64,000 nt of DNA from Streptomyces sp. 6-11-2 (GTDB taxonomy: Bacteria; Actinomycetota; Actinomycetes; Streptomycetales; Streptomycetaceae): the NCBI RefSeq assembly GCF_006540305.1, contig NZ_BJOR01000001.1, positions 6,696,001 through 6,760,000 of the forward strand. The letters run 5' to 3'. A program made the translations under genes and the position numbers. Positions 11,091 to 63,936 of this stretch are shown piece after piece; the stretch's first letter is position 1, and the number at the start of each line of letters is the position of its first letter. The notes beneath the pieces are model-generated. The model was not told the DNA's origin. It was given only the letters and a program-made list of their open reading frames with translations, and made no database searches.

Positions 11091-11096
11091 TTGTCA

Positions 11097-14891: not shown

Positions 14892-14896
14892 TCGCC

Positions 14897-15769
14897 TCAC
14901 CGTTCCCGCTTCGCGACCCGGTCGGCGATGCCCTCGCCGACGATGCTGAACGCCACGACGGCGAGCACGATGCACACGGACGGCGCGAGCGCGGGAAGCA
15001 TCGCGCCCTGCAACAGCGCGCCCTCACCCTCGTTGATCATCGCGCCCCAGTCGGCGGTCGGCGGCTGTACCCCGAAGCCGAGGAAGGAGAGAGCCGCGAG
15101 GTCCATCAGGGCGTACCCGAAGTTGATCGCCGACTGGGCGAGCACCGTCGGCGTGATGTTGGGCAACAGGTGCCGGACGCAGATCGTCCAGCCCGACCAG
15201 CCCTGGACGAGGTACGACTCGATGTACGGACGGGCCTTCTCCTGCCGGGCGATGCTGCGCACCAGGCGGCCCACGTACGGCGTGTACGCGACCGCCATGG
15301 CGATGACCGGCGCGGTCATGCCCGGTCCGGTGACAGCCACGAACATGATCGCCACAAGCAGGCCGGGGAAGGAGAACACCAGGTCCATCGACCGGGAGAG
15401 GACCGCGTCCACCCAGCCGCCGCGCCAGGCGGCGACGACGCCCACCAGGATGCCCAGCAGGGTCGACAACGCGACGACCACGAGCGGTCCGAGCAGCCCG
15501 GAGCGCGCGCCGTACAGCAGCCGCGACAGCACGTCGCGGCCCGACTGGTCGGCTCCCAGGAGGTGGTCGGTGCTGCTCCCGGCCAGGGTGGCCTGCAGAT
15601 CGAGGGCGTCGGGGTCGTACGGCGCGAGCAGCGGTGCGCACACGGCGACGGCCACCAGCACGGCCAGCAGCAGGACGGCCGCGGTGAACAGCGGCCCCTG
15701 GCCGAACACGCGCAGGCGGCGCAGACCGGGACGTCGGCGCAGCTCGGTGACGTCGACTGCGGTGGTCAT
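14897..15769 (-). CDS. ABC transporter permease (DppC/OppC-like)
   Basis: A 290-residue protein starts at ATG 15769, inside an ATGA overlap with the DppB-like gene. An N-terminal membrane anchor (TAAVLLLAVLVAVAVCAPLL) precedes HLLGADQSGRDVLSRLLYGA, the conserved DppC entry sequence. Several transmembrane helices follow, then the EAA loop region YIESYLVQGWSGWTICVRHL and the typical end (LSFLGFGVQPPTADWGAMI). It forms the membrane channel with the next permease. Confidence 0.92.
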   Translation of the reverse strand: MTTAVDVTELRRRPGLRRLRVFGQGPLFTAAVLLLAVLVAVAVCAPLLAPYDPDALDLQATLAGSSTDHLLGADQSGRDVLSRLLYGARSGLLGPLVVVALSTLLGILVGVVAAWRGGWVDAVLSRSMDLVFSFPGLLVAIMFVAVTGPGMTAPVIAMAVAYTPYVGRLVRSIARQEKARPYIESYLVQGWSGWTICVRHLLPNITPTVLAQSAINFGYALMDLAALSFLGFGVQPPTADWGAMINEGEGALLQGAMLPALAPSVCIVLAVVAFSIVGEGIADRVAKRER

Positions 15770-18368: not shown

Positions 18369-18422
18369 GGAACCGGCCCCTTTCCGGGGGGTCGAGGGTT
18401 CTGGAGGTTGCAGCGAGTATTG

Positions 18423-18462
18423 GTGCGGGAACGTTCCCGCACAAGGGTTTGCGGGAACGGTT
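18423..18462. promoter_or_regulatory. LacI-type operator between the importer operon and lacI-like gene
   Basis: 18423-18442 is the perfect 20-bp palindrome GTGCGGGAACGTTCCCGCAC, with the central CG typical of LacI-family operators. A second half-like copy, TTGCGGGAACGGTT, follows at 18449-18462. The site lies 55 bp upstream of the binding-protein start (18368) and about 75 bp before the regulator start (18518). It can therefore control both divergent units. Confidence 0.85.
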
Positions 18463-18517
18463 TTTTAAAGGTCAGAGACGCGTGGACGGTGGCGCGCGGG
18501 ACTGGCAGCATCAGCGC

Positions 18518-19579
18518 ATGACCGAAACTCCGCGCCGCACTGGCCACGGCGTCCCGGCCGCCGTCCCCCGGGTGCGCCTCGTCGACGTCGCCCGCGAGGC
18601 GGGCCTGTCCAAGACCACCGTCTCCGCGGCGCTCAACGGCACCGGGCGCCTCTCGCCGGCCGTGCGCGAGCACGCCCGCGAGGTCGCACGCCGCCTCGGC
18701 TACCGGCCCAACCCGACGGCACGGCTGCTGCGCGCCGGGCACGCCAGGCTCATCGGCTACGCCGTGGGGGAGTACCCCACGGGCCCCGGGTCCTACATGG
18801 ACTCCTCCTACTTCACCAAACTGACCAGCGCCGTCGCGACCGCGGCCCTGCGCCACGGCTACGGCCTGGTGCTGCTGCCCACCGGCTCCTCGCCCGACGA
18901 GTGGGCCGACCTGCCGCTCGACGCCGCGATCGTCGCCGACCCGCTCGTGGACGATCCCCTGGTGGAGGACTTCATCGCCGCCCGCATCCTGCTGTCCACC
19001 GACCGCTCGGTGGAGGGCCGTCCCGGCACGCACTGGGTGGACGTCGACGCCGACGCCGCCGTACGCGAGGTGCTGGACCATCTGCACGCACAGGGCGCAC
19101 GGCGCATCGCGGTCGTGGCGCCCGACACCCCGACCCGCTTCTACACGGCGGCCCTGGACGCCTACCGGCGCTGGTGCGCCGAGCAGCGCGCCACGCCTCG
19201 TGTCACCCATTCGGCCCGGCCGGGGAACGGCCCTGCCATCGAGGCGGTCGAACGGTCCCTCACCACGCCCGACCGGCCGGACGCCCTGTTCGTGCTGACC
19301 GAGGCCAACCCGCCGCTGGTGCTCGACGCCGCACGCCGCCTGGGCCTGTCGGTCCCCGGCGACCTGATGCTGGTGTGCGCGAGCGAGGACACCTCGGCCG
19401 CCCACGCCGACCCGCCCGTCACGACCCTGAGCCTCCAGCCGGTGAGCGTGGCCGAGAAGGGCGTCGAGCTGCTCGTCGCGGCCTTGGAGAGCGGGAGCCA
19501 GGAGCCGACGGGCGCGCTGGTGCGGACGAAACTGGAGATCAGGACGTCGTCGGGGCGCGGGGGCGATTCCACCTCCTGA
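18518..19579 (+). CDS. LacI-family transcriptional regulator
   Basis: The start is the ATG at 18518 (MTETPRR); the open frame extends further upstream but would include the operator. Residues about 20-70 are the LacI helix-turn-helix and hinge: RLVDVAREAGLSKTTVSAAL, then NGTGRLSPAVREH and LGYRPNPTARLLRAG. The rest (353 residues in all) is a periplasmic-binding-protein-like effector domain, with WVDVDADAAVREVLDHLHAQ and ARRIAVVAPDTP. It lies divergent from the importer-amidase operon across a palindromic operator and is most likely its autoregulated repressor, released by the imported compound. Confidence 0.92.
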   Translation: MTETPRRTGHGVPAAVPRVRLVDVAREAGLSKTTVSAALNGTGRLSPAVREHAREVARRLGYRPNPTARLLRAGHARLIGYAVGEYPTGPGSYMDSSYFTKLTSAVATAALRHGYGLVLLPTGSSPDEWADLPLDAAIVADPLVDDPLVEDFIAARILLSTDRSVEGRPGTHWVDVDADAAVREVLDHLHAQGARRIAVVAPDTPTRFYTAALDAYRRWCAEQRATPRVTHSARPGNGPAIEAVERSLTTPDRPDALFVLTEANPPLVLDAARRLGLSVPGDLMLVCASEDTSAAHADPPVTTLSLQPVSVAEKGVELLVAALESGSQEPTGALVRTKLEIRTSSGRGGDSTS

Positions 19580-19604
19580 CGGTCGCGCTCCGACGGTGCG
19601 GCCG

Positions 19605-21242
19605 TCAGGAGGCGGAGTGCACCAGTGCTCCCCCCACGTAGGTCCGCAGAACCCGGGCCGTGTGGATCTCCTCGGCCGGGGCGGTGAAGATGTCCCGGTC
19701 GAGGACCACCAGATCGGCGAGGTGGCCCGGCCGCAGGGTGCCGGTGTCGTCCAGGCCGTTGACGTGGGCCGAACCCGCTGTGTAGGCCGCGACCGCGGTG
19801 GCGAGGTCGAGGCGCTGTTCGGGCAGGAAGACCCGGCCGTCGGTCGCCCCGGGCTCCATCCGGTTGACGGCGACATGGATACCGGCGAGCGGGTCGGGGC
19901 TGCTCACGGACCAGTCGCTGCCCGCCGCGAGGGTCGCGCCGGCCCGCAGCAGGGAGCCGAAGGGGTACTGCCGGGCGGCGCGTTCGGGACCCAGGAAGGG
20001 GATGGTCAGTTCGTCCATCTGCGGCTCGTGGGCGGCCCACAGCGGCTGGATGTTGGCGATCGCGCCGAGCCGCGCGAAGCGCGGGATGTCGTCGGGATGG
20101 ACCACCTGCAAGTGGGCGAGGTGGTGCCGGGTGGCGCGGCGGCCGTTGGCGGTGCGGGCCGCCTCGATCGAGTCCAGCGCCTCGCGCACCGCGCGGTCGC
20201 CGAGGGCGTGGAAGTGCACCTGGAAGTCGAGCGCGTCGAGTTCGGTGACGTACGAACGCAGCGCGACCGGGTCGACGAAGCTCAGGCCGCTGTTGGCGGT
20301 GGCGCAGCCGCAGCCGTCCAGGTAGGGGCTGGTCATCGCGGCGGTGAAGTTCTCCGCGATGCCGTCCTGCATGATCTTCACCGAGCCGGCCCGGAACCTG
20401 CCGTGGCTCAGTTCCGCGCGGCGGGAGACCAGCTCCGGGATCTGGTCCGAACCTCGGCCGCGGTCCCACCAGAGCGCGCCGTTGACCCGGGCGGTGAGGG
20501 TTCCCTCGCGGGCGGCGGTGAGGTAGGCGTCGGAGGGGTCGGGCTGGCCGTTGAACTCGCCGAGCAGGGCGTCCTGCCAGCCGGTGATGCCGAGCGAGTG
20601 CAGCAGCCGCTGAGCGCGCAGCAGGCCGTCGAGGCGGTCGGCGGCGGTCTTCGCGGGCACCAGCCGGGCCACCAGGCCGGTGGCTCCCTCCTGGAGGACG
20701 CCGCTCGGTGCGCCGTCGCCCTCTCGTTCGATCCGGCCGTCGTCGGGGTCCGGGGTGTCCCGGGTGACGCCGGCGAGTTCGAGCGCGCGGGTGTTGGCCC
20801 AGGCGCCGTGGTGGTCCCGGTTGACCAGGTACACCGGCCGGTCCGGCACCACGGAGTCGAGCAGCTGCCGGGTCGGAAGGCCGCCCTCGAAGCTCTCCAT
20901 GGACCAGCCGCCGCCTGTGATCCAGCCGCTGCCGGGGTGGGTGTCGGCGAACTCACGGATGCGGCGCAGGTATTCGTCGACTCCCACGGTGCCGCTGAGG
21001 TCGCACTCGGCGAGCTCCATGCCGCCGTAGACGGCGTGGATGTGGGAGTCCTGGAAGCCGGAAAGCAGCAGCTTGCCGCTGAGGTCGACGACTTCGGTCC
21101 TCGGGCCGATCAGCTCCCGTACCTCGTCGTGGCCGACGGCCGTGATCCGGTCCCCGGTGACGGCGAGGCTGCTCGCCCGGGTGCGGGCGGGGTCCCCGGT
21201 GTGCACGGGGCCTTGGGTGAAGACCAGATCGGCCTTGGTCAT
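19605..21242 (-). CDS. YtcJ-like amidohydrolase family 3 protein
   Basis: This is a 545-residue protein from an ATG at 21242, after an AGGAGCACCTCCCATG-type leader on the minus strand. The metal-site landmarks of the amidohydrolase_3 group are present: LLSGFQDSHIHAVYGGMELA (HxH near residue 72), YLVNRDHHGAWANTRALELA, the metal-ligand-bearing VKIMQDGIAENFTAAM, VHFHALGDRAVREALDSIEA, and AAGSDWSVSSPDPLAGIHVA (Asp). The C-terminal LGTLRPGHLADLVVLDRDIF-type beta sandwich is also present. Substrates of this group are unknown apart from a few N-substituted amides. It sits between the LacI-amidase block and the APC permease, with 92 bp separating it from the permease stop. Confidence 0.88.
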   Translation of the reverse strand: MTKADLVFTQGPVHTGDPARTRASSLAVTGDRITAVGHDEVRELIGPRTEVVDLSGKLLLSGFQDSHIHAVYGGMELAECDLSGTVGVDEYLRRIREFADTHPGSGWITGGGWSMESFEGGLPTRQLLDSVVPDRPVYLVNRDHHGAWANTRALELAGVTRDTPDPDDGRIEREGDGAPSGVLQEGATGLVARLVPAKTAADRLDGLLRAQRLLHSLGITGWQDALLGEFNGQPDPSDAYLTAAREGTLTARVNGALWWDRGRGSDQIPELVSRRAELSHGRFRAGSVKIMQDGIAENFTAAMTSPYLDGCGCATANSGLSFVDPVALRSYVTELDALDFQVHFHALGDRAVREALDSIEAARTANGRRATRHHLAHLQVVHPDDIPRFARLGAIANIQPLWAAHEPQMDELTIPFLGPERAARQYPFGSLLRAGATLAAGSDWSVSSPDPLAGIHVAVNRMEPGATDGRVFLPEQRLDLATAVAAYTAGSAHVNGLDDTGTLRPGHLADLVVLDRDIFTAPAEEIHTARVLRTYVGGALVHSAS

Positions 21243-51504: not shown

Positions 51505-51550
51505 TTGACACCCCAATCACCCCTCACGACTATATGAACCAACGGTTCGC
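51505..51550 (+). promoter_or_regulatory. Promoter with overlapping operator for the F420-linked catabolic operon
   Basis: TTGACA (51505-51510), a 17-bp spacer and GACTAT (51528-51533) form a good sigma-70-type promoter. Directly after it, 51534-51550 reads ATGAACCAACGGTTCGC, an inverted repeat (GAACC-AAC-GGTTC), with a second overlapping repeat GGTTCG-CTTAC-CGAACC (51544-51560). The 17-bp site matches 61240-61256 at 13 positions, and that copy also follows a TTGACG/TAGCGT promoter. Confidence 0.75.
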
Positions 51551-51587
51551 TTACCGAACCAGCGAGCCAGATCTCTGGAGGAGAGCC

Positions 51588-52151
51588 GTGCCCATTCGGG
51601 TCCGCAAGATCATCAAGCAGCTCGATGAGACGAGGCTGGAGAACGGCCGCGCCGTGGACCCGGTCCACCGGGTCGCGTTCGTCGGAGCCGTCATCGAGAA
51701 CCCGTATCCCAGCGAGTACGTCCAGGACCTCGTCACTCTCGCCGACGAGGTGGGCGAGGAGATCGGCAAGCTGGTCGGTCCCGCCTGCGTGGAGCTCCTG
51801 GGGTGCGAGGTCGAGGCGTTCGGCAAGGCCGCGCTCGTCGGCATCGGCGGAGAGGTCGAGCACGGCTCGGCGCTCATCCACAACCTGCGCTTCGGCAACG
51901 TCTTCCGCTCCGCCGCAGGCGGCACCGAGCTGCTGCCGGCCGCCGAGAAGGTCGGCCTCCCGGGCAGCCCGATCGACATCCCGCTCAAGCACAAGCTGGA
52001 CGCCAAGACGCGCTCGCACCACCAGACGGTCACCCTTCAGGTCGCCGATGTCCCCCGGCCGCGCGAGATCTTCGTCGTGTGCGCCGCTGCGAGCGCCGGC
52101 CGCCCGCTGGCCCGTCTCGCCGCCTTCGGTGCCGAGACCCGGAACCAGTGA
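51588..52151 (+). CDS. DUF1185 (amino acid synthesis family) protein
   Basis: A 187-residue protein from a GTG behind GGAGGAGA. MPIRVRKIIKQLDETRLENG, then VAFVGAVIENPYPSEYVQDL, GPACVELLGCEVEAFGKAAL, GIGGEVEHGSALIHNLRFGN and IDIPLKHKLDAKTRSHHQTV are the blocks of the DUF1185/AA_synth family. The biochemical role of the family is not established. As first gene of this operon, with a hydantoinase and a ureidopropionase-like enzyme downstream, it may be a small ring hydrolase, isomerase or accessory factor for the cyclic amide substrate. No signal peptide. Confidence 0.82.
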   Translation: MPIRVRKIIKQLDETRLENGRAVDPVHRVAFVGAVIENPYPSEYVQDLVTLADEVGEEIGKLVGPACVELLGCEVEAFGKAALVGIGGEVEHGSALIHNLRFGNVFRSAAGGTELLPAAEKVGLPGSPIDIPLKHKLDAKTRSHHQTVTLQVADVPRPREIFVVCAAASAGRPLARLAAFGAETRNQ

Positions 52152-52197
52152 CGAGGTCCGTACCGCAGCAGCCGACGAACGACGAGGAGGCAGTCCG

Positions 52198-53556
52198 TTG
52201 ACCATCACCGAGACCGATGCGTGGACCGGGCAGCGCGTCAAGGAAGCCGACAGCGAATACGTCATCCACTCCTGGTCCGTCCAGGGCGCGCTCAACCCCA
52301 TCCCGGTGGCCGGGGGTTCCGGGTCCTGGTTCTGGGACTACGAGGGGAACAGATACCTCGACTTCCAGTCCCAGCTCGTCAACCTCAACCTGGGCCACCA
52401 GCACCCCAAGTTGGTCGAGGCCATCCGCGAACAGGCCGACCGCCTCTGCTACATAGGCCCCGGCTTCGCCGAGCGCTCCCGCGCCGAACTGGCCGAGATG
52501 CTGGCCTCACTCACCCCCGGCGACCTGAAGATGAGCTTCTTCACCACCGGCGGAGCGGCGGCCAACGAGAACGCGATCCGGCTCGCCCGCCACGTGACCG
52601 GACGCCACAAGGTGATCGCCCGCTACCGCTCGTACCACGGCGCCACCAACGGGGCGATGTCGCTGACCGGCGACCCCCGTCGCTGGGCCGCGGAACCGGG
52701 CGGGATGCCAGGAGTGGTGCGGATGTTCGACCCGTACACCTACCGCTGCCCGGCCGGACATCCGGACCCCTGCCCCGTGTGCTCCGGGGGGCCGCACCTG
52801 GAGGAGATCCTCCAGTACGAGAACCCGGACACGGTCGCCGCGGTGATCGTCGAGCCCGTCACCGGCACCAACGGCCTGATCTACCCGCCCGACGGCTATC
52901 TGCGGTCGCTGCGCGAGGTCTGCGACCGGCACGGCATCCTGCTCATCTTCGACGAGGTCATGGCGGGCTTCGGCCGCACCGGTGAGTGGTTCGCCTGCAA
53001 TCACTGGGACGTCACCCCCGACATCCTCGTCACCGCCAAGGGCCTGAACTCGGGTTACGTCCCGCTGGGCGCGATGACCGTCTCGGCCCGCGTCTCCGAG
53101 TGGCTCGGGGACCACATGTTCTGGGGCGGCCTCACCTACGCCGGACACCCGCTGGCCTGCGCCTCCGGTGTCGCCTCACTCCGCATCATGCAGGAGGAGA
53201 ACATCGTGGAGAACGCGAGGTTGCGCGGCGAACGCCTCGGCGCCGGACTGGCCAAGCTCGCCGAGAGCCACCCGAGCATCGGTGAGATCCGCGGCCGCGG
53301 CCTGTTCCACGGCGTCGAACTGGTGAAGAACCGGGAGAGCCGCGAACCGCTGGTGCCGTTCAACGCCAAGGGGCCCGCCGCGGCACCGGTCACCCGGATC
53401 GTGAAGGAAGCCATGGCCCGCGGCCTGTACCTGACGGCCAACTTCAACGTGCTCCGGCTGACACCTCCGCTCGTCATCGAGGACTCCGAGATCGACCTCG
53501 CTCTCGACGTACTGGACGACGTCCTGAACCTCGCCGACGAGCAGTACGTAGGGTGA
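52198..53556 (+). CDS. Class III (omega-amino acid type) PLP aminotransferase
   Basis: A 452-residue protein; the TTG at 52198 is chosen for the GAGGAGG upstream. The frame before it overlaps the DUF1185 gene. Landmarks are SWFWDYEGNRYLDFQSQLVN, FFTTGGAAANENAIRLARHV (phosphate site), RSYHGATNGAMSL, LIFDEVMAGFGRTGEWFACN (Asp to PLP nitrogen) and ILVTAKGLNSGYVPLGAMTV (Schiff-base Lys). Close relatives act on beta-alanine, GABA and other omega-amino acids. In this operon it would take the amino acid released by the ureidopropionase-like hydrolase, for example beta-alanine to malonate semialdehyde. Confidence 0.9.
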   Translation: MTITETDAWTGQRVKEADSEYVIHSWSVQGALNPIPVAGGSGSWFWDYEGNRYLDFQSQLVNLNLGHQHPKLVEAIREQADRLCYIGPGFAERSRAELAEMLASLTPGDLKMSFFTTGGAAANENAIRLARHVTGRHKVIARYRSYHGATNGAMSLTGDPRRWAAEPGGMPGVVRMFDPYTYRCPAGHPDPCPVCSGGPHLEEILQYENPDTVAAVIVEPVTGTNGLIYPPDGYLRSLREVCDRHGILLIFDEVMAGFGRTGEWFACNHWDVTPDILVTAKGLNSGYVPLGAMTVSARVSEWLGDHMFWGGLTYAGHPLACASGVASLRIMQEENIVENARLRGERLGAGLAKLAESHPSIGEIRGRGLFHGVELVKNRESREPLVPFNAKGPAAAPVTRIVKEAMARGLYLTANFNVLRLTPPLVIEDSEIDLALDVLDDVLNLADEQYVG

Positions 53557-53606
53557 GGCGCAATGGCGGGCAAGGCGCGGGCGCGCCACATGAGAGAGGG
53601 TGCAGC

Positions 53607-55028
53607 ATGGCATCGACGTTGATCAGAGGCGGTACGGTCGTCAACGCCGATGCCGCCGTCAGGGCCGACGTACTGATACGCGACGGTGTGGTCGTGGCGC
53701 TCGGCGCCGGCACGGACGACTGGAGCGCCGACCACGTGGTCGACGCCGAGGGAATGCTCGTGATGCCCGGTGGCATCGACGCGCACACCCACCTCGAATA
53801 TCCCATCGACGGCTTCACCACCCGCACCGCGGACGACTTCCACAGTGGGACGGTGGCGGCCGCCCACGGCGGTACGACCACGGTCCTGGACTTCGTGAAG
53901 AAGGAGCCGGAGCGGAGCCTGCTCGACACCTACCGGTCCCGGCGCGACGTCGCGGCGGCCAAGTCGGTGATCGACTTCGGGCTGCACGCGATCGTCCCGC
54001 CCCGCGAGCAGCAGCCGGACGTCCTGGACGACCTGCGGCGGCTGGCCGGGGAGGGGGCCACGAGCTGGAAGTTCTTCATGGCCTACCCCGGCACGCAGAT
54101 GGTCGACGACGGGGAACTGCTGGAGGGCTTCGAGCTCGCCCTGGAGCACGGCGTCCTGCCGATGGTGCACGCCGAGAACGGCCACATGATCGCCCGGGAG
54201 ACCCAGCGACTGCTGGCCGACGGCCGGACGGCCGAGGTCTTCCACGCCAGCGCCCACGGGCACGACTCCGAGGCCGAGGCCGTGCACCGCGCCGTGGTCC
54301 TCGCCGAGTCCGTCGGCACCCCGCTCTACGTCGTGCACGTCTCCAGCGCCGCCGCGGCCGACGAGATCAGCAGGGCCAGGGCCGCCGGAGCGCGGGTGTG
54401 GGGCGAGACGTGTCCCCAGTACCTCGCCGTCGCCTACGAGGACTACGCCGACCTGGGGGAGAAGGCCGCCGCCTACCTGTGCTCGCCCCCTATCCGGGAG
54501 CGGGGCAACCAGGAGGGGCTGTGGCGGTCCCTGGTCACCGGGGCGATGTCCACGGTGGCCACCGACCACGCCGGTTTCTGCCTCCACCAGCCCGAGGATC
54601 TGCCGCCGCAGAAGCTGCGCAGCCCCGGATACTTCCCGAAGGTCCCCAACGGTGTCCCCGGTATCGAGGACAGGCTCATGGTGCTGTGGGAGACGGGGGT
54701 CGCGGGCGGCCGGTTCGACGCCTGCAGGTTCGTGGACCTGGTCTCCACCCGCCCGGCGAAACTGTTCGGGATGTTCCCGCACAAGGGCGCCGTCGCCGTG
54801 GGCGCGGACGCCGACCTGCTGGTGTGGGACCCGGCGGCCGACCATGTGATCAGCGCGGCCGGCAGCCACATGCGCACCGACTACAACCTCTACGAGGGGA
54901 TGCGCGTGACCGGCCGTCCGGTCCGCGTCTTCTCCCGGGGCGAGCAACTCGTCGGCCCTGACGGGGCCTTCGACGGGGCCGCGGGCCGAGGGCGTTTCCT
55001 CACCCGGGGCAAGCCCCAGCTGCACTGA
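53607..55028 (+). CDS. Dihydropyrimidinase/hydantoinase
   Basis: A 473-residue protein from an ATG behind GAGAGGG. It is a cyclic amidohydrolase with all dinuclear metal ligands: PGGIDAHTHLEYPIDGFTTR (HxH), ATSWKFFMAYPGTQ (carboxylated Lys), LPMVHAENGHMIARE (His), LYVVHVSSAAAADE (His) and MSTVATDHAGFCLHQ (Asp). The product-binding EYP region is typical of D-hydantoinase/dihydropyrimidinase rather than allantoinase. TDHAGF replaces the common DHCPF/DHCTF motif. It opens the ring of 5,6-dihydropyrimidines or hydantoins to N-carbamoyl amino acids, the substrate type of the nitrilase-fold gene downstream. Confidence 0.92.
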   Translation: MASTLIRGGTVVNADAAVRADVLIRDGVVVALGAGTDDWSADHVVDAEGMLVMPGGIDAHTHLEYPIDGFTTRTADDFHSGTVAAAHGGTTTVLDFVKKEPERSLLDTYRSRRDVAAAKSVIDFGLHAIVPPREQQPDVLDDLRRLAGEGATSWKFFMAYPGTQMVDDGELLEGFELALEHGVLPMVHAENGHMIARETQRLLADGRTAEVFHASAHGHDSEAEAVHRAVVLAESVGTPLYVVHVSSAAAADEISRARAAGARVWGETCPQYLAVAYEDYADLGEKAAAYLCSPPIRERGNQEGLWRSLVTGAMSTVATDHAGFCLHQPEDLPPQKLRSPGYFPKVPNGVPGIEDRLMVLWETGVAGGRFDACRFVDLVSTRPAKLFGMFPHKGAVAVGADADLLVWDPAADHVISAAGSHMRTDYNLYEGMRVTGRPVRVFSRGEQLVGPDGAFDGAAGRGRFLTRGKPQLH

Positions 55029-55079
55029 GATCCCCCCACGTCCTTGACGCGTCACACCAGCTGACACGTGTCCGTGGTG

Positions 55080-55100
55080 CGGAACCCCGGGTGGGTTCCG
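55080..55100. promoter_or_regulatory. Perfect 8-bp inverted repeat between hydantoinase and LLM genes
   Basis: CGGAACCC-cgggt-GGGTTCCG lies in the 117-bp gap, 45 bp before the LLM oxidoreductase start. It contains GAACC/GGTTC half-sites like the two operators at 51534 and 61240 but with a wider centre. It could be an attenuating hairpin, a processing site or a third operator. Confidence 0.55.
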
Positions 55101-55145
55101 TGCCACCGGGCCCGCGTCTCGCAACACGAACGGAGCGGTGTCTCG

Positions 55146-56153
55146 ATGAAACTCCCCCTGGGCATCCATGTCGGTGAACGGCTGAGCCTGGAGCAGACGT
55201 ACTGGCAGGCCGAGCTGGCCGACCAGAACGGGTTCGAATCCGTATGGGTCGCGGAGGGGCGGCTGGCGCGCGACGGCATCGTCCCGGCCGCCGTCATCGC
55301 GAGCAGGACCCGCAACGTCAAGATCGGCACGGGCGTCGTCAACAACAAGAGCCGGAACGCGGCCCTGATGGCCGTCACCTTCAAGACCCTGGACGAGCTG
55401 GCCCCCGGCCGGGCCATTCTCGGCATCGGCGCCTGGTGGGAGCCGCTGGCCACCAAGGTCGGCCAGCCGCTGCGCAAGCCCATCGCCTCGATGCGCGAGT
55501 ACATCACCGTGCTGCAGAGCTTCTTCCGCAACGAAGTCGTGTCCTTCGAGGGCGAGTTCGTGCAGATGCGCGACGTGCGCTTCGACAGCATGTACCGGGA
55601 GAACAAGCCGGTCGACATCCCCATCTACATCGGCGCCGTCGGCCCCCGGATGCTGGAGCTGGCCGGTGAGATCAGCGACGGCGTGCACATGGACTTCCTG
55701 CTCCCGCCCTCGTACCTGGTGGGCGCCAAGGAGGCGATCGCCCGGGGACTCGCCAAGCGGACCGACGGCAAGGACTCGATCGACCTCACCCAGATCGTCG
55801 CGTGCAGCGTCAACGACGACGATCCGCAGGAGGCCATCGACGCCTGCAAGGCGTTCCTCACCCTCTACCTGGCGCAGCAGCCGCACATCGCCGAGCACTG
55901 CGGTGTGGAACGCGAACTGGTGGACCGCATCCAGGAGCGGGCCGGCTGGCCCGCCACCCCCGAGGCGATCAAGAAGGCCATGCCGCTGGTCCCCAACAGC
56001 CTGGTGCAGAACGTCACCGCCTGCGGCTCCACCGACGAGGTGTTCGCCAAGCTGATGGAGTACCACGAGGCCGGGGTCCGCTGCCCGATCATCTCCACCC
56101 TGGGTGACAAGGAGCAGACGCTGACCCGCCTCGCCCAGGCCGCGAAGGGCTGA
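55146..56153 (+). CDS. LLM-class (luciferase-like) F420-type oxidoreductase
   Basis: A 335-residue TIM-barrel protein. LPLGIHVGERLSLEQTYWQA, AELADQNGFESVWVAEGRLA, IGTGVVNNKSRNAALMAVTF and ELAPGRAILGIGAWWEPLAT resemble the methylene-tetrahydromethanopterin reductase branch of the family, which binds F420 at the barrel mouth. IPIYIGAVGPRMLELAGEIS, DGVHMDFLLPPSYL is the usual C-terminal barrel half. Being encoded with FbiC, FbiD and an F420:NADP reductase strongly supports F420 as cofactor. Proposed role: reduction (or oxidation) of the cyclic substrate before hydrolysis by the hydantoinase, standing in for dihydropyrimidine dehydrogenase, which is absent here. Confidence 0.88.
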   Translation: MKLPLGIHVGERLSLEQTYWQAELADQNGFESVWVAEGRLARDGIVPAAVIASRTRNVKIGTGVVNNKSRNAALMAVTFKTLDELAPGRAILGIGAWWEPLATKVGQPLRKPIASMREYITVLQSFFRNEVVSFEGEFVQMRDVRFDSMYRENKPVDIPIYIGAVGPRMLELAGEISDGVHMDFLLPPSYLVGAKEAIARGLAKRTDGKDSIDLTQIVACSVNDDDPQEAIDACKAFLTLYLAQQPHIAEHCGVERELVDRIQERAGWPATPEAIKKAMPLVPNSLVQNVTACGSTDEVFAKLMEYHEAGVRCPIISTLGDKEQTLTRLAQAAKG

Positions 56154-56158
56154 CGGCG

Positions 56159-56860
56159 ATGAGCGACTTCCCGGCCGACCCGATCGCCGTGGTCGGCGGC
56201 ACCGGCCCCCAGGGCCGGGGCCTGGCCTACCGGCTCGCCCGTGCCGGCCACCTGGTGGTGCTCGGCTCACGCGACGCCGGCCGGGCCGCCGACGCGGCCG
56301 GGCAACTGCGCACGCTGCCGGGCGTGGCCGCGCCCGTCGACGGGGCCTCCAACGAGGACGCCGCCCGGTGCGCCGCGATCGTCCTGCTGGCCGTGCCCTA
56401 CCAGGGCCACGCCGAACTGGTGGCCTCGATGGCCGACGTTCTCGCGGGCAAGCTGATCATCTCCTGCGTCAACCCGCTGGGATTCGACAAGGGCGGCCCG
56501 TACGGTCTGTCCGTCGCGGCAGGGAGCGCCGCCGAGGAGGCGGCCGGGCTCGTGCCGTCCGCCGCGGTCGTCGGAGCCTTCCACCACCTGGCCGCCCCGC
56601 TGCTGCTCGACCCCGAGGCCGACCTGAGCCATGAGGACGTCCTCGTCTGCGGGGACGACGCAGAGGCCAAGGCCCGGGTCCTGGCCCTGGCCGCCGACGT
56701 CACCGGAGGCCGCGCGGTGGACGCGGGCCGGCTGCGGCTGGCCGCCCAGCTCGAGCCGCTCACCGCGGTGCTGATCTCCGTCAACAAGCGCTACAGGACC
56801 AGGTCCGGAGTGGCACTCACCGGCCTGTCCACCGCCGCCGCCAAGGAGGAAGTGGCATGA
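56159..56860 (+). CDS. npdG: F420H2:NADP+ oxidoreductase (NADPH-dependent F420 reductase)
   Basis: A 233-residue protein, six bases after the LLM stop. IAVVGGTGPQGRGLAYRLAR is the NADP motif of the family, followed by HLVVLGSRDAGRA (Ser-Arg for the NADP phosphate). AAIVLLAVPYQGHAELVASM and LIISCVNPLGFDKGGPYGLS come next, with AVVGAFHHLAAPLLLDPEAD and VLVCGDDAEAKARVLALAAD completing it. It transfers hydride between NADPH and F420, supplying F420H2 to the adjacent LLM enzyme. The stop overlaps the next start (ATGA). Confidence 0.9.
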   Translation: MSDFPADPIAVVGGTGPQGRGLAYRLARAGHLVVLGSRDAGRAADAAGQLRTLPGVAAPVDGASNEDAARCAAIVLLAVPYQGHAELVASMADVLAGKLIISCVNPLGFDKGGPYGLSVAAGSAAEEAAGLVPSAAVVGAFHHLAAPLLLDPEADLSHEDVLVCGDDAEAKARVLALAADVTGGRAVDAGRLRLAAQLEPLTAVLISVNKRYRTRSGVALTGLSTAAAKEEVA

Positions 56861-57690
56861 GACTCGCCGCGGTCCAGCTCCGGGCCACCGACGACCGGGC
56901 CGAGACCGTCGAACGCGCCGGCGACCTGGTGGACGCCGCCGCCGACCAGGGAGCCGGGATCGTCCTGCTGCCCGAGCTGTTCGCCGTCCCCTTCGTCCAG
57001 CCCGACCCCGACCCGGACTACTTCCGGCTCGCGGAGAGCCTCGACGGGCCCTCCAACACCATGGCGGCGGAACGATCCCGCAGGGCCGGCATCACGGTCG
57101 TCTCCTCCGTCTTCGAGGAGGGCGAGGTGCCCGGCGTCTACTACAACACCGCCTGCACCTACGTGCGCGGCGAACTGAAGTCGGTCTACCGCAAGTCCCA
57201 CCTGCCGTTCTCCAACGGCTTCCCCGAGAAGTTCTACTTCCGTCCCGGCGGTATCGAGCCCGAGGTCGTGGACACCGGCGAGACCGGTGTCGGAACGATC
57301 ATCTGCTACGAGCGGCACTTCCCGGAGCTGAGCCGGATCGTCGCCCTGCGCGGAGGCTCCGTGCTCTGCGTACCGGTGGCCTCGGCGAGCGCGCCGATGC
57401 GCGAGGTGTTCCAGCTGGAACTGCGCGCCCACGCCGTCTTCAACGGGATGTTCGTCATCTGCTCCAACCGCGTCGGCAGAGAAGGCGTCAAGGAGTACTT
57501 CGGGCTCAGCGCCGTCTACGGCCCCGACGGCGACATCCTCGCCCAGGCCGCCGACGACCGTGACGACGTCGCCGTCGCCGAGGTGGACCTGGAGCGCGTG
57601 GCCGCCACCCGGCGCAGCCGCCCGTTCCTGCGCGACCGCCGCCCGGAGCTGTACGACCGGCTCACTGGAAGAGGACCGGCGACGCCATGA
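56857..57690 (+). CDS. Nitrilase-superfamily amidohydrolase (beta-ureidopropionase / N-carbamoylase-like)
   Basis: A 277-residue protein; ATGA overlaps at both ends. The catalytic triad is complete: Glu in [14 protein letters not shown], Lys in [12 protein letters not shown] and Cys in [18 protein letters not shown]. The order of [20 protein letters not shown] and the ICYERHFPE elbow is that of beta-ureidopropionases and N-carbamoyl-amino-acid hydrolases. It would hydrolyse the N-carbamoyl product of the hydantoinase to an amino acid, CO2 and ammonia. The position in the operon fits this sequence of reactions. Confidence 0.9.
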
Positions 57691-58370
57691 CCACGCCGTG
57701 GATCGCGCTGGTACCGGCCAAGCCCCTCGCGCGGGCCAAGAGCCGGTGTGCCGGGCTCACGCCGGACGCCAGGCGCTCCCTGGCCAAGGCCATGCTGACC
57801 GATCTGGTGGGGCGGCTTCGAGACGTGCCCGCCGTCCACTCGGTCGTCGTGGTGACGACGGATCCCGAGGTGACGGGCCTGGCCCTCGCCTCGGGGGCCG
57901 CCGTCTCGGGCTCGGGGCGCACTCCCGGCCTCAACAGCGAGGTCGGGGAAGCCCTCGAGATGGTCGGCGGTGCCGCCCCCGCTGCCGCACTCGCCCTGAT
58001 CATGGGCGACCTCGCGGGGGCGGGCACCGCCGACTGTGCGACGGCGCTCGCCCTGGCCGCACGCCACCGGCGCGCGGTCGTCGGGGACGCCGACGGCACC
58101 GGGACCACCCTGCTCACCCTGCACGACGCGGCCGACTTCCGGCCGTTCCTCGGCCCCGGTTCCCTGAGGCGGTTCCACGCCGCCGGATACCACGATCTCG
58201 GCGTGGGGCCCTCGTCCCCGCTGCGCCGGGACGTCGACACCGTCGACCACCTGCTGTCACTGCCCTCGCACACGCTCGGTCCCGCCACCCGTCAGTGGCT
58301 CGCCGCCTTCCCGCCCGGTGGGCCCCGGTCAGACCCGAGCACGCACGAGAGAAGGGTCGGAGCACTGTGA
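57687..58370 (+). CDS. fbiD: 2-phospho-L-lactate/phosphoenolpyruvate guanylyltransferase (CofC/FbiD)
   Basis: A 227-residue protein of the CofC family. [20 protein letters not shown] is the nucleotide-binding entry, with [20 protein letters not shown] and [15 protein letters not shown] in the middle. [20 protein letters not shown] (metal-binding Asp region) and [15 protein letters not shown], then [17 protein letters not shown] are all characteristic. It activates phosphoenolpyruvate or 2-phospholactate with GTP for addition to FO in F420 synthesis. The ATG overlaps the previous stop, and its own stop overlaps the fbiC GTG start, so cofactor genes are translationally coupled to the catabolic genes. 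Confidence 0.9.
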
Positions 58371-60994
58371 ACGGCCTTACCCGCCCCACCCGCTCGGCCA
58401 TGAACCGGGCGCTGCACCGGGCCACCGACGCCAGGACACTCGACGCAGCCGAGGCCGAGGTCCTGCTGCACGCGCGCGGCGCCGACCTCGACCGGCTCTG
58501 CGAGGCGGCGGGCCGGGTCCGCGACGCCGGCCTCCGGGCCGCCGGGCGGCCCGGCGTGATCACCTACTCCCGCAAGGTGTTCATCCCGCTCACCCGGCTG
58601 TGCCGTGACCGCTGCCACTACTGCACCTTCGCCACCGTCCCGGGGCGGCTCCCCGCCCCCTACCTCAGCCCCGACGAGGTGCTGGACATCGCCCGCGCGG
58701 GAGCGGCGGCGGGATGCAAGGAGGCGCTGTTCACCCTGGGCGACCGGCCCGAGGAGCGCTGGCCCGCGGCCCGCGCCTGGCTGGACGCGCACGGCTACGA
58801 CGACACACTCAGCTATGTACGGGCCATGGCGATCCGGGTGCTGGAGGAGACCGGCCTGCTGCCTCACCTCAACCCCGGAGTGCTGTCCTGGACCGGCCTC
58901 CAGCGGCTGAAGCCCGTGGCACCGAGCATGGGCATGATGCTGGAGACCACAGCGAGGCGGCTGTGGTCCGAGCCCGGCGGCCCGCACTTCGGCTCACCCG
59001 ACAAGGAGCCCGCGGTGCGGCTGCGGGTGCTGGAGGACGCGGGCCGCAGCAACGTGCCGTTCACCACCGGGATCCTCATCGGCATCGGGGAGACGCCCGC
59101 CGAACGGATCGACGCCCTGCGGGAGATCCGCCGGATCTCCCGGGCGTACGGGGGGATCCAGGAGGTGATCGTGCAGAACTTCCGGGCCAAGCCGGACACG
59201 GCGATGCGTGCCGCGCCCGACGCCGGACCGGCCGAACTGGCCGCCACCATCGCGGTGGCGCGGCTGCTGCTCGGCCCCGGGGCCCGTGTCCAGGCCCCGC
59301 CCAACCTGGTCGGCGAGGAGTTCGCGCTGATGCTGCGGGCCGGCATCGACGACTGGGGCGGGGTGTCCCCGGTGACCGGCGACCATGTCAACCCCGAGCG
59401 GCCCTGGCCGGTGATCGAGGAACTGGCCGCGAACACCGCGGCCGCGGGCTTCACCCTCCGCGAGCGGCTGACGGTCTACCCCGAGCACCTGCGGCGCGGT
59501 GAGCCGTGGCTGGATCCCCGGCTGGCCTCCCATGTGGCGGCGCTCGCCGATCCCGTGACCGGCCTGGCGGCCGAGGGAGCGCGGCCCCGTGGCCTGCCCT
59601 GGCAGGAACCGGAGACGCCGCTCGCCGCCACCGGCCGCACCGACCTGTTCGCCGCCATCGACACCGACGGCCGCGCCACCGACCGGCGGGCGGACTTCGA
59701 CTCGGTGTACGGGGACTGGGCGGCGGTCGCTCAAGCGGTACCGGAGTCGGCACGCGCGTCCGGGCGGCGGAGCGAGGAGGAACCCGTGCCTCCCGGGGGC
59801 GCACGGCCGGAGCGGCTGCGACCCGAGTTCGCGGCAGCGCTGCGGGCGGCGGAGGCCGATCCCGCGCGGCTCGCATCCGCGTCCGCGCTGACGCTGCTGG
59901 GCGCCGCACCCGGGGCGGAGATCGAGGCGCTGGCCGCGCTCGCCGACAGCCTGCGCGCCGCAGCCGCCGGGGACGAGATCACCTACGTGGTCACCCGCAA
60001 CATCAACTTCACCAACGTCTGCTACACCGGCTGCCGCTTCTGCGCCTTCGCCCAGCGGCGTACCGACGCCGACGCCTACACCCTGTCGCTGGAGCAGATC
60101 GGCACGCGGGCCGAGGAGGCGTGGGGGGTGGGGGCGAGCGAGGTCTGCCTCCAGGGCGGGATCCACCCGGACCTGCCGGGCAGCGCGTACTTCGACATCG
60201 CCGCCGAGATCAAGCGGCGTACTCCGGACATGCACGTGCACGCCTTCTCGCCCATGGAGGTCGTCAACGGTGCGACCAGGATGGACCTGTCGGTACGGGA
60301 GTGGCTCCAGGGGGCCCGGGAGGCGGGCGTCGACTCGTTGCCCGGCACGGCCGCCGAGATCCTCGACGACGAGGTCCGCTGGGTCCTCACCAAGGGGAAA
60401 CTCCCCGCGGCCCAGTGGATCGACGTGGTCACCACCGCCCACTCGCTGGGCATTCCGACCACGGCGACCATGATGTACGGCCACGTGGACACCCCGCGCC
60501 ACTGGGTGGACCACATCAAGCTGATCGGACGCCTCCAGGAAGAGACGGGAGGCTTCACCGAGTTCGTCCTCCTGCCGTTCGTCCATACCAACTCCCCGGT
60601 CTACCTGGCCGGAATCGCCAGGTCCGGGCCGACCGTCCTGGAGAACCGGGCCGTACACGCCCTGGCGCGGATCCTGCTGCACGGCAGGATCCGCAACATC
60701 CAGACGAGCTGGGTGAAGCTGGCGCGGAGCAACGTCCTCGACGTCCTGCGAGGCGGTGTCAACGACATCGGCGGAACGCTGATGGAGGAGACCATCAGCA
60801 GGATGGCGGGCTCCGAGCAGGGCAGTCACAAGAGCGTGAGCGATCTGGAGGCGCTGGCCCACGACGCGGGCCGCCCGGCCCGCATGAGGACCACCACCTA
60901 CGGCACCGTCAGTGCGGAGCGGGAGGCCGTGGCCCGCCGGCACGGAGGAGTGTGGCGGCCGTCGAGGCCGTCGTTGACGATTCTCAATTCTTAG
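58367..60994 (+). CDS. fbiC: FO synthase, bifunctional CofG-CofH radical SAM enzyme
   Basis: An 875-residue protein from a GTG within a GTGA overlap. The N-terminal CofG half has [20 protein letters not shown] with the Cys-x3-Cys-x2-Cys iron-sulfur motif (residues about 80-90) and [20 protein letters not shown]. The C-terminal CofH half (from about residue 495) has [20 protein letters not shown] with the second radical SAM motif, [20 protein letters not shown] and [20 protein letters not shown]. Both halves are complete, so 5-amino-6-ribitylaminouracil and tyrosine can be converted to the F420 chromophore FO. FbiA and FbiB homologues are not in the window. Last gene of the first half of the cluster. 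Confidence 0.95.
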
Positions 60995-61211
60995 CGGAGC
61001 GGCCGTCACACCCGTCGCCCGGACAACCCTCCTCTTCGGGACGCGAGGGATATCGGGTGCCCCCTGGGAATTCCGCGTGGGTCGTTTGCCCATTCTCCGG
61101 CTCGGGCGGTTGAACCATATTGCCGTGCGGTGATTCGCCGCCGTTCCGGCCCTCTCCGAATCCGGGATTGAGGCGCCTCGCGGGATCGTGCCAAGCATTT
61201 CGGCCAAACCG
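60995..61211. other. Intergenic region after fbiC
   Basis: About 217 bp without a gene. No strong hairpin terminator was recognised, although the region is less GC-rich than its neighbours. Confidence 0.4.
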
Positions 61212-61256
61212 TTGACGAGAACTGAACCTCCCCTCTAGCGTGAACCACCAGTTCAC
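61212..61256 (+). promoter_or_regulatory. Promoter and operator of the ABC importer operon
   Basis: TTGACG (61212-61217), an 18-bp spacer and TAGCGT (61236-61241) form a promoter. 61240-61256 reads GTGAACCACCAGTTCAC, an inverted repeat with GTGAAC/GTTCAC arms, 13 of 17 identical to the site at 51534-51550. The placement relative to the promoter is the same at both sites, which argues for one regulator of catabolism and uptake. Confidence 0.75.
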
Positions 61257-61355
61257 TCAGCGATCCAGTTGCGCTGGGTGGCTCGACAGGCCGGCAGAGG
61301 CGACCAGATTCCCTCCCCGGACGACACATCCGAAGGATTCGGAGAGTGCCTGAGC

Positions 61356-62297
61356 ATGACCGCGACCAACATCTCTGCATCACCCCGACCGCCCGCGGCC
61401 CGTAAGGGACAGGCGGATCCCGCGCCCCGCGAGCCGGGCCGTGGCGGCGCCTTCCTCCGCCGGCTCACCGATCCGCTCGGCGCCCTCCTCGTCATGGTCG
61501 TCCTCGCCTGTCTGTGGGAGGGCTACAAGGCACTCGGCCAGGCCGTCGACGACCGGATCCTCGGGATCGGCCTGCCGGTCGCCACCGACGACCTGTCGAT
61601 GCCGCACCTGTGGACGATCGCCGGCTCGCTCACGGCGCCAGCACGCGCGGGCGACCCGACCTCACTGGCGGTGTACCTCGTCGGCGAGACCACCGTGACG
61701 CTCCGCGAAGCCCTCTACGGTCTGGCGGCCGGATCGCTGCTCGGTCTCGCACTGGCGGTGCTCTTCCTCCATGTGGCACCGGTGAGCAAGGGCCTGATGC
61801 CCTGGCTGGTCGCCTCCCAGACGGTGCCACTGGTCGCCATCGCCCCGATGATCGTGATCTGGGGCGGCAAGGCGGGTCTGCCGCCGTGGGCCGCGGTCAC
61901 GGGCATCGCCGCCTATCTCGCGTTCTTCCCCGTCACCATCAACTCCCTGCGCGGGCTGAAGTCCCCGCCCAAGGTGCAGCTCGACTTCATGCGCAGTGTC
62001 GGCGCCGGACGCGCCCGGGTGCTGTGGTCGCTGCGGTTCCCGGCGGCACTCCCGTACGTCTTCGCCGGACTGCGGCTCGCCGCCACCGCGAGTGTGGTGG
62101 GCGCCATCGTGGGCGAGTTGTCGGCCGGCACCGGCCGCGGCATCGGCCGCGCGATCCTCACCTCCGCCTACTACTACTCGAACGGGCCGGAGAAGCTGTA
62201 CGCCGCCGTCCTCGTCGCCGCGATCGCCGGAATCCTCTTCGTGCAGGTCCTCGCTCTGCTGGAGCGGTTCGCCCTCCGCCACCGGCACGCCCGTTAG
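61356..62297 (+). CDS. ABC transporter permease (SsuC/TauC/RibX-type)
   Basis: A 313-residue membrane protein from ATG 61356. After a Pro/Arg-rich cytoplasmic tail come about six helices. ALYGLAAGSLLGLALAVLFL, then MPWLVASQTVPLVAIAPMIV and the EAA loop with VQLDFMRSVGAGRARVLWSL fit the nitrate/sulfonate/pyrimidine-precursor (BPD_transp_1) family. The partner permease lies at 63118 and the ATPase between them. Two different permeases imply a heterodimeric channel. The solute-binding protein is probably encoded just beyond the window. Confidence 0.9.
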   Translation: MTATNISASPRPPAARKGQADPAPREPGRGGAFLRRLTDPLGALLVMVVLACLWEGYKALGQAVDDRILGIGLPVATDDLSMPHLWTIAGSLTAPARAGDPTSLAVYLVGETTVTLREALYGLAAGSLLGLALAVLFLHVAPVSKGLMPWLVASQTVPLVAIAPMIVIWGGKAGLPPWAAVTGIAAYLAFFPVTINSLRGLKSPPKVQLDFMRSVGAGRARVLWSLRFPAALPYVFAGLRLAATASVVGAIVGELSAGTGRGIGRAILTSAYYYSNGPEKLYAAVLVAAIAGILFVQVLALLERFALRHRHAR

Positions 62298-62326
62298 TCG
62301 AGAACCCACAACCCTTGGAGCCCCTG

Positions 62327-63121
62327 ATGGCCGAGCCCGCAATCATCTCCGTGCGCGGAGTCAACAAAGTCTTCAACGGCGGTTCCGACCGTGCGGTCAC
62401 CGCTCTGGAGGACATCGACCTGACCATCGGGCGGGGCGAGTTCATCTCCCTGCTCGGGCCCAGCGGCTGCGGCAAGTCCACCCTGCTGCGGGTGATGGCG
62501 GACCTCACCACACCCACGAGCGGCACCGTCATCGTCAACGGCAAGGCACCGGGTGCGGCACGCGCCGACCGCGACTACGGCATGGTCTTCCAGCAGGCCG
62601 GCCTGTTCGAGTGGCGCAGTGTCCTGCGCAACGTCGAACTCCCGCTCCAGGTGGCAGGGGCGAAGAAGGAGGTACACCGGGCCAAGGCCATGGAGATGCT
62701 GGAACTGGTCCGCCTCAGCGAGTTCGCCGGGCACTACCCCTGGCAGCTCTCCGGCGGCATGCAGCAGCGCGTGGCGATCGCCCGCGCTCTCTCCGCCGAT
62801 CCCGAGATCCTCTTCATGGACGAACCGCTGGGCGCCCTCGACGAGATGAACCGCGAACGGCTCCAGGGCGAGCTGTTGCGCATCTGGGGCGACACCCGCA
62901 CCACCGTCGTGTTCGTCACGCACAGCATCTCCGAGGCGGTGTTCCTCTCCTCGCGGGTGGTGGTGATGTCCGCGCGGCCCGGCCGCGTCGCGGCCTGCAT
63001 CGACGTGGACCTGCCCCATCCCAGGACCGCCGAGACGCGCACCACGCCGGAGTTCTTCGAGAAGGTCAAGGAAGTCCGCCAGGCCCTGCACGAGGCGCCC
63101 AGCGAGCGGGCGGCGGCATGA
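62327..63121 (+). CDS. ABC transporter ATP-binding protein (SsuB/TauB-type)
   Basis: A 264-residue protein. Walker A is LLGPSGCGKSTLLRVMADLT, the Q-loop GMVFQQAGLFEWRSVLRNVE, the signature WQLSGGMQQRVAIARALSAD, Walker B ILFMDEPLGALDEMNRERLQ and the H-loop VVFVTHSISEAVFLSSRVVV. These are the exact subfamily features of sulfonate/nitrate/hydroxymethylpyrimidine importers. The start is ATG 62327 behind TTGGAG. Stop and next start overlap (ATGA). Confidence 0.93.
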   Translation: MAEPAIISVRGVNKVFNGGSDRAVTALEDIDLTIGRGEFISLLGPSGCGKSTLLRVMADLTTPTSGTVIVNGKAPGAARADRDYGMVFQQAGLFEWRSVLRNVELPLQVAGAKKEVHRAKAMEMLELVRLSEFAGHYPWQLSGGMQQRVAIARALSADPEILFMDEPLGALDEMNRERLQGELLRIWGDTRTTVVFVTHSISEAVFLSSRVVVMSARPGRVAACIDVDLPHPRTAETRTTPEFFEKVKEVRQALHEAPSERAAA

Positions 63122-63936
63122 GCACCCTCCGGCTCTCCCGGCCCGCCGGTGCCTCCGCTCTCAAGGCACGCGCCCTGCGGTTCACGCCGGTCGCGCTGAC
63201 CGCCGTGATTCTGCTCGGCCTGTGGCAGTCGGCCGTGACCCTGTTCGACGTGCCCGTGTTCATCATGCCGACCCCGGTCATGATCGCGGAGGCGTTCCGG
63301 CACGATTTCGGGACGATCATGTCCGCGTCCCTGTCCACCGTCGAGCCCGTCCTGCTGGGCCTGGTCATGGGGTCGCTCGGGGGGATCTGCGTGGCCCTCG
63401 TCGTCAGCCGCTTCCCCCGGCTGTCGGGCCCGGTGCTCAACGCCGCCGTGCTGATCAACTGCGCGCCGATCGTCGCCCTGGCCCCGATCTTCAACAACTG
63501 GTTCGGTGTGACCAGCCTGCTCTCCAAGGCCGGCGTCGCCGCCGTCATGGTGTTCTTCCCGGTCTTCGTCAACACCACCCGGGGCCTGCTCCAGATCGAG
63601 CCCCTGCACCTGGAGATCATGGAGTCCCTCGCGGCCCGTCCGCGCCAGGTGGCCCTCCTGCTGCGGCTTCCCAACGCGCTCCCGTTCGTCTTCACCGCGC
63701 TGAAACTCGGCACCACCCTCGCCGTCATCGGCGTGATCGTCAGCGAGTACTTCGGTGGGAGCACCGAGGCGCTCGGCGTGTACATCGCCTATCAGGCGGC
63801 CCTTCCCCGATTCGACTACGCCTGGGCCGGAATTCTCGTATCCGGTGCGCTCGGACTCGGTCTGTTCGGAGCCGTGACTCTTCTGGAGAGATTCCTCATG
63901 CCCTGGCACGAGTCGCTGCACGAGGAAAGAGCCTGA
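63118..63936 (+). CDS. ABC transporter permease (SsuC/TauC/RibX-type), second subunit
   Basis: A 272-residue protein with about six helices. VFIMPTPVMIAEAFRHDFGT is the typical P-S/T-P entry after the first helix. INCAPIVALAPIFNNWFGVT and the EAA loop MESLAARPRQVALLLRLPNA, LPFVFTALKLGTTLAVIGVI, VSEYFGGSTEALGVYI follow. It resembles pyrimidine-precursor and riboflavin/thiamine-precursor importers of actinobacteria as much as sulfonate importers. A pyrimidine-type ligand is therefore plausible in this context. Confidence 0.92.
   Translation: MSTLRLSRPAGASALKARALRFTPVALTAVILLGLWQSAVTLFDVPVFIMPTPVMIAEAFRHDFGTIMSASLSTVEPVLLGLVMGSLGGICVALVVSRFPRLSGPVLNAAVLINCAPIVALAPIFNNWFGVTSLLSKAGVAAVMVFFPVFVNTTRGLLQIEPLHLEIMESLAARPRQVALLLRLPNALPFVFTALKLGTTLAVIGVIVSEYFGGSTEALGVYIAYQAALPRFDYAWAGILVSGALGLGLFGAVTLLERFLMPWHESLHEERA

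Follow-up and report, generated by a model that had tools for sequence, protein, structure and literature searches.

We report that a plus-strand block of genes at positions 51534-63936 of a 64,000-nucleotide stretch of the Streptomyces sp. 6-11-2 genome (hereafter the window; C1:6696001-6760000 of a genome of 8.73 Mb) probably forms an operon for the breakdown of a cyclic ureide of pyrimidine type. Within it, an LLM-class protein would reduce the ring with F420H2 in the place of PydA, the flavin mononucleotide (FMN)/iron-sulphur (Fe-S) dihydropyrimidine dehydrogenase of the Pyd pathway. The proposal is based on the gene families of the block, their order, their recurrence in other genomes and the finding of no PydA-like, RutA or barbiturase gene in the source genome. 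Uracil, thymine or a close analogue is the predicted substrate, and the use of F420 by the LLM protein, the direction in which it works and each reaction of the pathway are likewise predictions.

Gene content of the block

All genes of the block face the same direction and none is interrupted. The LLM gene, encoding the candidate F420H2-dependent ring reductase (55146..56153, +; PF00296, 208.6 bits, cut-off 27.9), is separated by 5 bases from that of NpdG/Fno, an NADPH:F420 reductase (56159..56860, +; TIGR01915, 198.7 bits, cut-off 149.8). Ring opening, decarbamoylation and transamination, the steps named in the initial annotation, each have their gene family. A dihydropyrimidinase/D-hydantoinase in the predicted PydB role (53607..55028, +) scored 509.7 bits (cut-off 393.25) against TIGR02033, a model that spans D-hydantoinases and dihydropyrimidinases and cannot separate the two; its closest solved chains are likewise of both kinds. 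A carbon-nitrogen hydrolase (56857..57690, +; PF00795, 176.6 bits, cut-off 23.2) is a candidate beta-ureidopropionase in the PydC role, assigned to its superfamily, with TIGR03381 and the other specific NCBIfam models listed all below cut-off. A class-III transaminase of probable beta-alanine/omega-amino acid type (52198..53556, +; PF00202; PRK06062, 575 bits, cut-off 472) probably has a PydD-like role; its closest solved chain is a taurine:2-oxoglutarate aminotransferase (390 bits vs 292 for the next).

The block further encodes CofC, the F420 side-chain nucleotidyltransferase (57687..58370, +; TIGR03552, 110 bits, cut-off 105), FbiC (CofGH), the FO synthase (58367..60994, +; PRK09234, 1450 bits, cut-off 1018) and, as its first gene, an AA_synth/DUF1185 protein (51534..52151, +; PF06684, 176 bits). 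Overlaps of 4 bases join NpdG to the carbon-nitrogen hydrolase, the hydrolase to CofC and CofC to FbiC, and the other junctions from AA_synth to FbiC measure at most 117 bases. After a gap of 361 bases, FbiC is followed by an ATP-binding cassette (ABC) importer consisting of two permeases (61356..62297 and 63118..63936, both + and PF00528) and an ATPase (62315..63121, +). The ATPase matched many NCBIfam ABC ATPase models, with SaoA (231.5 bits, cut-off 360) and the taurine type (221.1, cut-off 357) on top; its best 25 NCBIfam matches all fell below their own cut-offs, general models possibly excepted. The translations show hydrolase catalytic motifs, the transaminase lysine and radical-SAM cysteines, in what we take to be their usual definitions. 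Thus, family models and the uninterrupted, co-directional arrangement bear out the gene calls of the initial annotation, which had left AA_synth unnamed.

Taken as a pathway, the ABC importer would take up the ring and NpdG would generate F420H2 from NADPH. The LLM protein would then use F420H2 to saturate the double bond of the ring, as PydA does elsewhere, and the dihydropyrimidinase would open the reduced ring. The carbon-nitrogen hydrolase would cleave off the carbamoyl group, giving CO2 and ammonia, the transaminase would convert the resulting beta-amino acid to a semialdehyde, and a neighbouring dehydrogenase would oxidise the latter.

No PydA-like gene was found in the source genome; the initial annotation had stated its absence for the block. 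A DHO_dh search found no PydA-type dihydropyrimidine dehydrogenase; the one strong match (295 bits) lies among carAB, pyrD and pyrF (neighbours read by eye), reads as PyrD and was rejected as a PydA candidate, and two weaker matches covered 47-50 positions at 26-28 bits. Uracil use by a RutA-like or barbiturase route was also rejected: the best match to RutA (TIGR03612) reached 75.3 bits against a cut-off of 498.3, and barbiturase family PF09663 had no match. A PydA or Rut pathway elsewhere in the genome, which the initial annotation had raised as another explanation of pyrimidine use, was therefore not encountered.

Family and fold of the LLM protein

Six sequences of Mer, the F420-dependent methylenetetrahydromethanopterin reductase, were the closest solved chains to the LLM protein by sequence. 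When an AlphaFold model of the protein (mean predicted local distance difference test score 91.2) was compared with solved folds, Mer chains occupied the top eight places (template modelling score to query 0.82-0.87), ahead of other F420 enzymes, with FMN luciferase-type enzymes lower still. Its scores stayed under the cut-offs of all NCBIfam LLM models listed, among them the Mer equivalog TIGR03555 (162.7 bits, cut-off 348.7) and TIGR03842 (85.8 bits, cut-off 295.45). It has the bacterial luciferase fold and is nearest to F420 members, and is predicted to bind F420 on the basis of this homology and the F420 genes nearby. An F420-type enzyme in the place of PydA, as first annotated, agrees with the Mer-like character of the protein and with the recurrence of F420 genes beside its homologues.

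Membership of PF00296, and the fact that FMN luciferases and monooxygenases match the fold too, ranked under F420 enzymes, might suggest an oxygen-using, FMN-dependent ring-opening monooxygenase in the manner of RutA. We regard this as most improbable: the closest homologues are Mer and other F420 enzymes, NpdG and further F420 genes adjoin the LLM gene, and a dihydropyrimidinase would be superfluous in such a route.

In a phylogenetic tree, the LLM protein and 15 homologues formed one clade of 16 rows (Shimodaira-Hasegawa approximate likelihood ratio test, SH-aLRT, 99), separate from a main distant group of 87 rows (SH-aLRT 96). L100, at 50% identity, grouped with the close clade (SH-aLRT 100) and seven other rows fell outside the main distant group; the distant homologues therefore do not form one strict clade. 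Deep placements are unsure, since the tree was built by a quick method and long branches were flagged for L002, L066, L083 and L100 among others. Comparison of 16 close, 87 main distant and 10 TIGR03842 rows revealed residues kept in the first two groups and absent in the third, including A36-E37, R39, R42, W97-W98 and Q244-I248, while H8, found in the window clade, gives way to Tyr in the main distant group. Such group-specific residues are candidate positions of the substrate pocket.

Recurrence of the gene set

From a homologue scan across genomes the best 80 of 555 confirmed stretches were kept. The LLM homologue was 72-97% identical in 14 of these and at most 51% identical in the remaining 66; one further close homologue (G482, 89%) brought the close set to 15 loci besides the window. 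With contig ends cutting some loci and so affecting the counts, a carbon-nitrogen hydrolase of the window type was present in 15/15, a transaminase in 14/15, AA_synth in 14/15 (directly adjoining the transaminase in 13), a dihydropyrimidinase-like gene in 14/15, an IclR regulator in 13/15 and a binding protein in 9/15. F420 genes comprised NpdG (10/15), CofC (6/15) and FbiC (3/15). Of the partners whose co-occurrence the initial annotation proposed to check, the dihydropyrimidinase-like gene was thus present in nearly all of these loci and NpdG in two thirds; RutA was found in one of the 15 close-clade genomes searched. AA_synth is tied to this operon type, and the operon may in turn reveal the function of AA_synth.

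The order AA_synth, transaminase, dihydropyrimidinase, LLM, carbon-nitrogen hydrolase, with or without NpdG before the last, was kept in nine of the 15 loci (L086-L090, L095-L097 and L053) belonging to several families; in Streptomyces kebangsaanensis (L086) the block genes are 90-98% identical. Since 15 loci of other genomes repeat the block in whole or part, its synteny exceeds chance. The scarcity of FbiC and CofC at these loci would suit the co-inheritance of two functionally unconnected units, one a hydantoinase operon and the other an F420 supply module, an explanation that we consider very unlikely given the order retained across families.

Hosts of the close clade include Streptomyces, Micromonospora, Dactylosporangium, Nocardioides, Arthrobacter, Leucobacter and an Acidimicrobiia metagenome-assembled genome. 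The gene set is rare. In a sample of the phylum, an LLM match at E 1e-50 was obtained in 30/396 genomes, all at 49% identity or less save the source genome, and in a sample of relatives in 3/100, namely the source genome, G482 (89%) and G475 (46%). Horizontal spread is likely. In two Nocardioides loci (L092 and L093) a thiamine pyrophosphate enzyme stands beside the LLM gene instead of the dihydropyrimidinase, with a divergent hydantoinase-like gene upstream.

Cofactor genes were also sought beyond the loci. CofG/FbiC was found in 11/13 close-clade genomes searched and CofD in 9/9. The locus of Leucobacter chironomi (L097, about 2300-16665) carries CofD, CofE and CofC, and a search of that genome for CofG/FbiC gave no match, possibly a sign of FO salvage or of a draft gap. 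In the source genome the block copy of FbiC is the second of two, and the single match to CofD/FbiA lies outside the block at C1:4.27 Mb. The block can therefore not be called self-contained, as it initially had been.

Distant homologues in purine-type clusters

The distant LLM homologues (41-51% identity; L066, 36%) come from Chloroflexota, Acidimicrobiia, other Actinomycetota, Nitrososphaerota and a few others. One contig labelled as a Bifidobacterium breve metagenome-assembled genome (L139) has an LLM that groups with Acidimicrobiales, probably through a binning or naming error. The 94 distinct distant loci were probed with Escherichia coli K-12 genes, taking the best match at E 1e-6 or better. 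A homologue of ssnA or xdhD was nearby in 65/94 (ssnA 43, xdhD 57), and in 53 of the 69 loci of at least 10 kb. Further purine-type genes were ygeW (14), ygeX (9) and ygeY (8), together with NpdG at 11/94 and CofC at 7/94; the E. coli K-12 ygfK probe found nothing in the 94 loci. In 18 control stretches, each 20 kb long and drawn from seven of these genomes, ssnA, xdhD, ygfM, ygeW, ygeX and ygeY were matched in none, while other probes did match: ABC ATPase 4, weak LLM (23-27%) 4, aldehyde dehydrogenase 1 and IclR 1. At L115 (Anaerolineae, 4810-20327), ssnA precedes NpdG and CofE, after which come a nitroreductase-like gene, CofD, CofC and LLM, and then an xdhD homologue at 14190 and a flavin adenine dinucleotide (FAD)/Fe-S subunit-like gene at 18879; CofE, CofD and the nitroreductase-like and FAD/Fe-S subunit-like genes were named by eye.

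According to PMC12507026, YgfK has been characterised as the purine-ring reductase, its product having been observed only when SsnA was present; Chloroflexota are stated to lack YgfK and UacX and to have a putative F420 luciferase-family dehydrogenase, which is suggested as an alternative reductase. The distant homologues presumably include this Chloroflexota enzyme. Their presence in reductive uric-acid-type clusters in which YgfK was not found is independent support for ring reduction, and favours the ring-reduction hypothesis of the initial annotation; less favourable to it is a second LLM/dihydropyrimidinase locus in the genome (described below), which could handle uracil.

The shared LLM family raises the question of whether the window operon is a reduced form of this uric-acid pathway. 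We consider this very improbable, as ssnA, xdhD, ygeW, ygeX and ygeY occur in 0/15 close loci, and AA_synth and the window-type transaminase in 0/94 distant loci. Inspection of the genes called near the window block (L017) likewise showed no SsnA or XdhD homologue. A uric-acid pathway in the window clade was therefore rejected.

The LLM homologue of 36% identity, at L066:2821-12082, adjoins hydantoinase A/B, an M20 amidase, a hydantoin racemase and an NCS1 permease (read by eye). Together with the coverage of D-hydantoinases by TIGR02033, the D-hydantoinases named among the closest solved chains and the unexplained AA_synth and second nitrilase, this allows for a different cyclic ureide as the substrate of the operon, for example a substituted hydantoin or a xenobiotic N-heterocycle, with the LLM protein acting not on a pyrimidine ring but on a side group or on a product formed later. 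Such an alternative appears unlikely: the reductive purine-type clusters of the distant homologues argue for ring reduction, and the transaminase is closest to the taurine/omega-amino acid type.

Other LLM and dihydropyrimidinase loci

A second LLM/dihydropyrimidinase locus resides in the same genome at about 1.17 Mb of C1 (L018:6591-15681). An NCS1 permease comes first there, then a TIGR03842 LLM (574 bits vs a cut-off of 295) and a dihydropyrimidinase (575 bits vs 393), and after these a nitrilase, a PucR-like regulator, a transaminase and another nitrilase. Uracil could be served by either the window LLM or the TIGR03842 LLM, or substrates may be divided between the two loci. TIGR03842 was found in 62/296 genomes of the phylum and in 8/15 close-clade genomes; among 30 of its loci examined, an NCS1-type permease lay within about 1.5 kb in 18 and a dihydropyrimidinase in 4. 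In one Acidimicrobiia locus (L098:8568-16703) a window-type LLM and a TIGR03842 LLM occur together.

The 15 close-clade genomes searched contained one strong DHO_dh match in 13 cases and two in 2, with RutA in one. Neighbourhoods of strong matches were examined in the source genome and, for the second matches, in G482 and G494, where these lie among de novo or orotate-type genes (read by eye). TIGR03842, RutA and barbiturase were all not found in G493, G497 and G501, which have one strong DHO_dh each; the window-type LLM is thus the sole candidate there among the routes searched, a set without the URC pathway.

Past the window, the block is followed by an NMT1/THI5 binding protein (L017:14098-15213, in the extended window locus; PF09084), an IclR regulator, a succinate-semialdehyde dehydrogenase-like aldehyde dehydrogenase (568.8 bits vs a cut-off of 646), a second nitrilase and an NCS1 permease. 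No RNA element reached its gathering threshold in 44-64 kb of the window, and promoter and terminator patterns in 50.9-61.4 kb were not above those of shuffled sequence.

Discussion

Several observations weigh against a pyrimidine-ring reductase in the window. The second locus (L018) may be the one that handles uracil, and a third dihydropyrimidinase above the TIGR02033 cut-off lies at about 6.25 Mb (L019:7727-9232); an aldehyde dehydrogenase and further hydrolase-like genes adjoin it, with no LLM among the genes called around it. The textbook pathway offers no place for AA_synth or a second nitrilase. Four Nocardioides loci (L092 and L093, read gene by gene; L094 and L099, by probes) lack a dihydropyrimidinase adjoining the LLM gene and have a hydantoinase-like gene of 31-35% identity at the far end; their NpdG match is absent in three and 42% identical in the fourth. 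G497 and G501 gave no CofG match despite having CofD. Among the distant loci of at least 10 kb, 16/69 have neither ssnA nor xdhD, and at 23-40% identity the ssnA and xdhD matches mark a superfamily better than an exact enzyme, so that other functions are possibly included.

We continue to favour reduction of a pyrimidine-type ring by the LLM protein, and tentatively propose a wider scheme as a fair possibility rather than a firm expectation: a Mer-like LLM family without a name of its own may perform F420H2-dependent reductive dearomatisation of nucleobases, its window branch replacing PydA and its purine branch replacing YgfK. The latter branch would act on oxopurines in Chloroflexota, Acidimicrobiia, other Actinomycetota and some Nitrososphaerota.

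For purines, an F420 nucleobase reductase has already been proposed in print (PMC12507026). For pyrimidines, no description was found in the literature covered, which leaves most subscription journals outside; within the same coverage, PMC12507026 alone was pertinent among the matches listed for F420 paired with dihydropyrimidinase or with a hydantoin or pyrimidine pathway. In the portion available, the survey of PydA variants in PMC7332683 restricted its candidates to the dihydroorotate dehydrogenase domain, so an LLM-type substitute could not have been seen. The F420 review PMC8498797 poses as open questions the large number of predicted F420 enzymes from this superfamily in mycobacteria and the reason for which F420 is made by Proteobacteria and Chloroflexi. 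If our proposal is true, nucleobase catabolism would be one answer, with one enzyme family keeping purine or pyrimidine partners. Bacteria and archaea would use F420 for nitrogen scavenging as a matter of course, F420 genes would have a reason to stand in catabolic operons, and the Fe-S/flavin dihydropyrimidine dehydrogenase would have an alternative.

Among known systems, the block resembles the Pyd pathway in the gene families that would serve ring opening, decarbamoylation and transamination, but differs in having LLM and NpdG where PydA was not found. Mer is closest to the window LLM in solved fold and sequence, whereas the family signatures GAWW and QQPHI are absent from two aligned Mer sequences. 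The TIGR03842 (F420_CPS_4043) gene also adjoins a dihydropyrimidinase in the source genome, although the window LLM belongs to another tree clade. Unlike the Chloroflexota variant of the reductive uric-acid pathway (PMC12507026), the loci of the window clade showed no homologue of ssnA, xdhD or ygeX and instead have the dihydropyrimidinase, the transaminase and AA_synth. Distant homologues of the window LLM nevertheless lie in clusters of that type, and the two systems share a proposed logic of ring reduction followed by hydrolysis.

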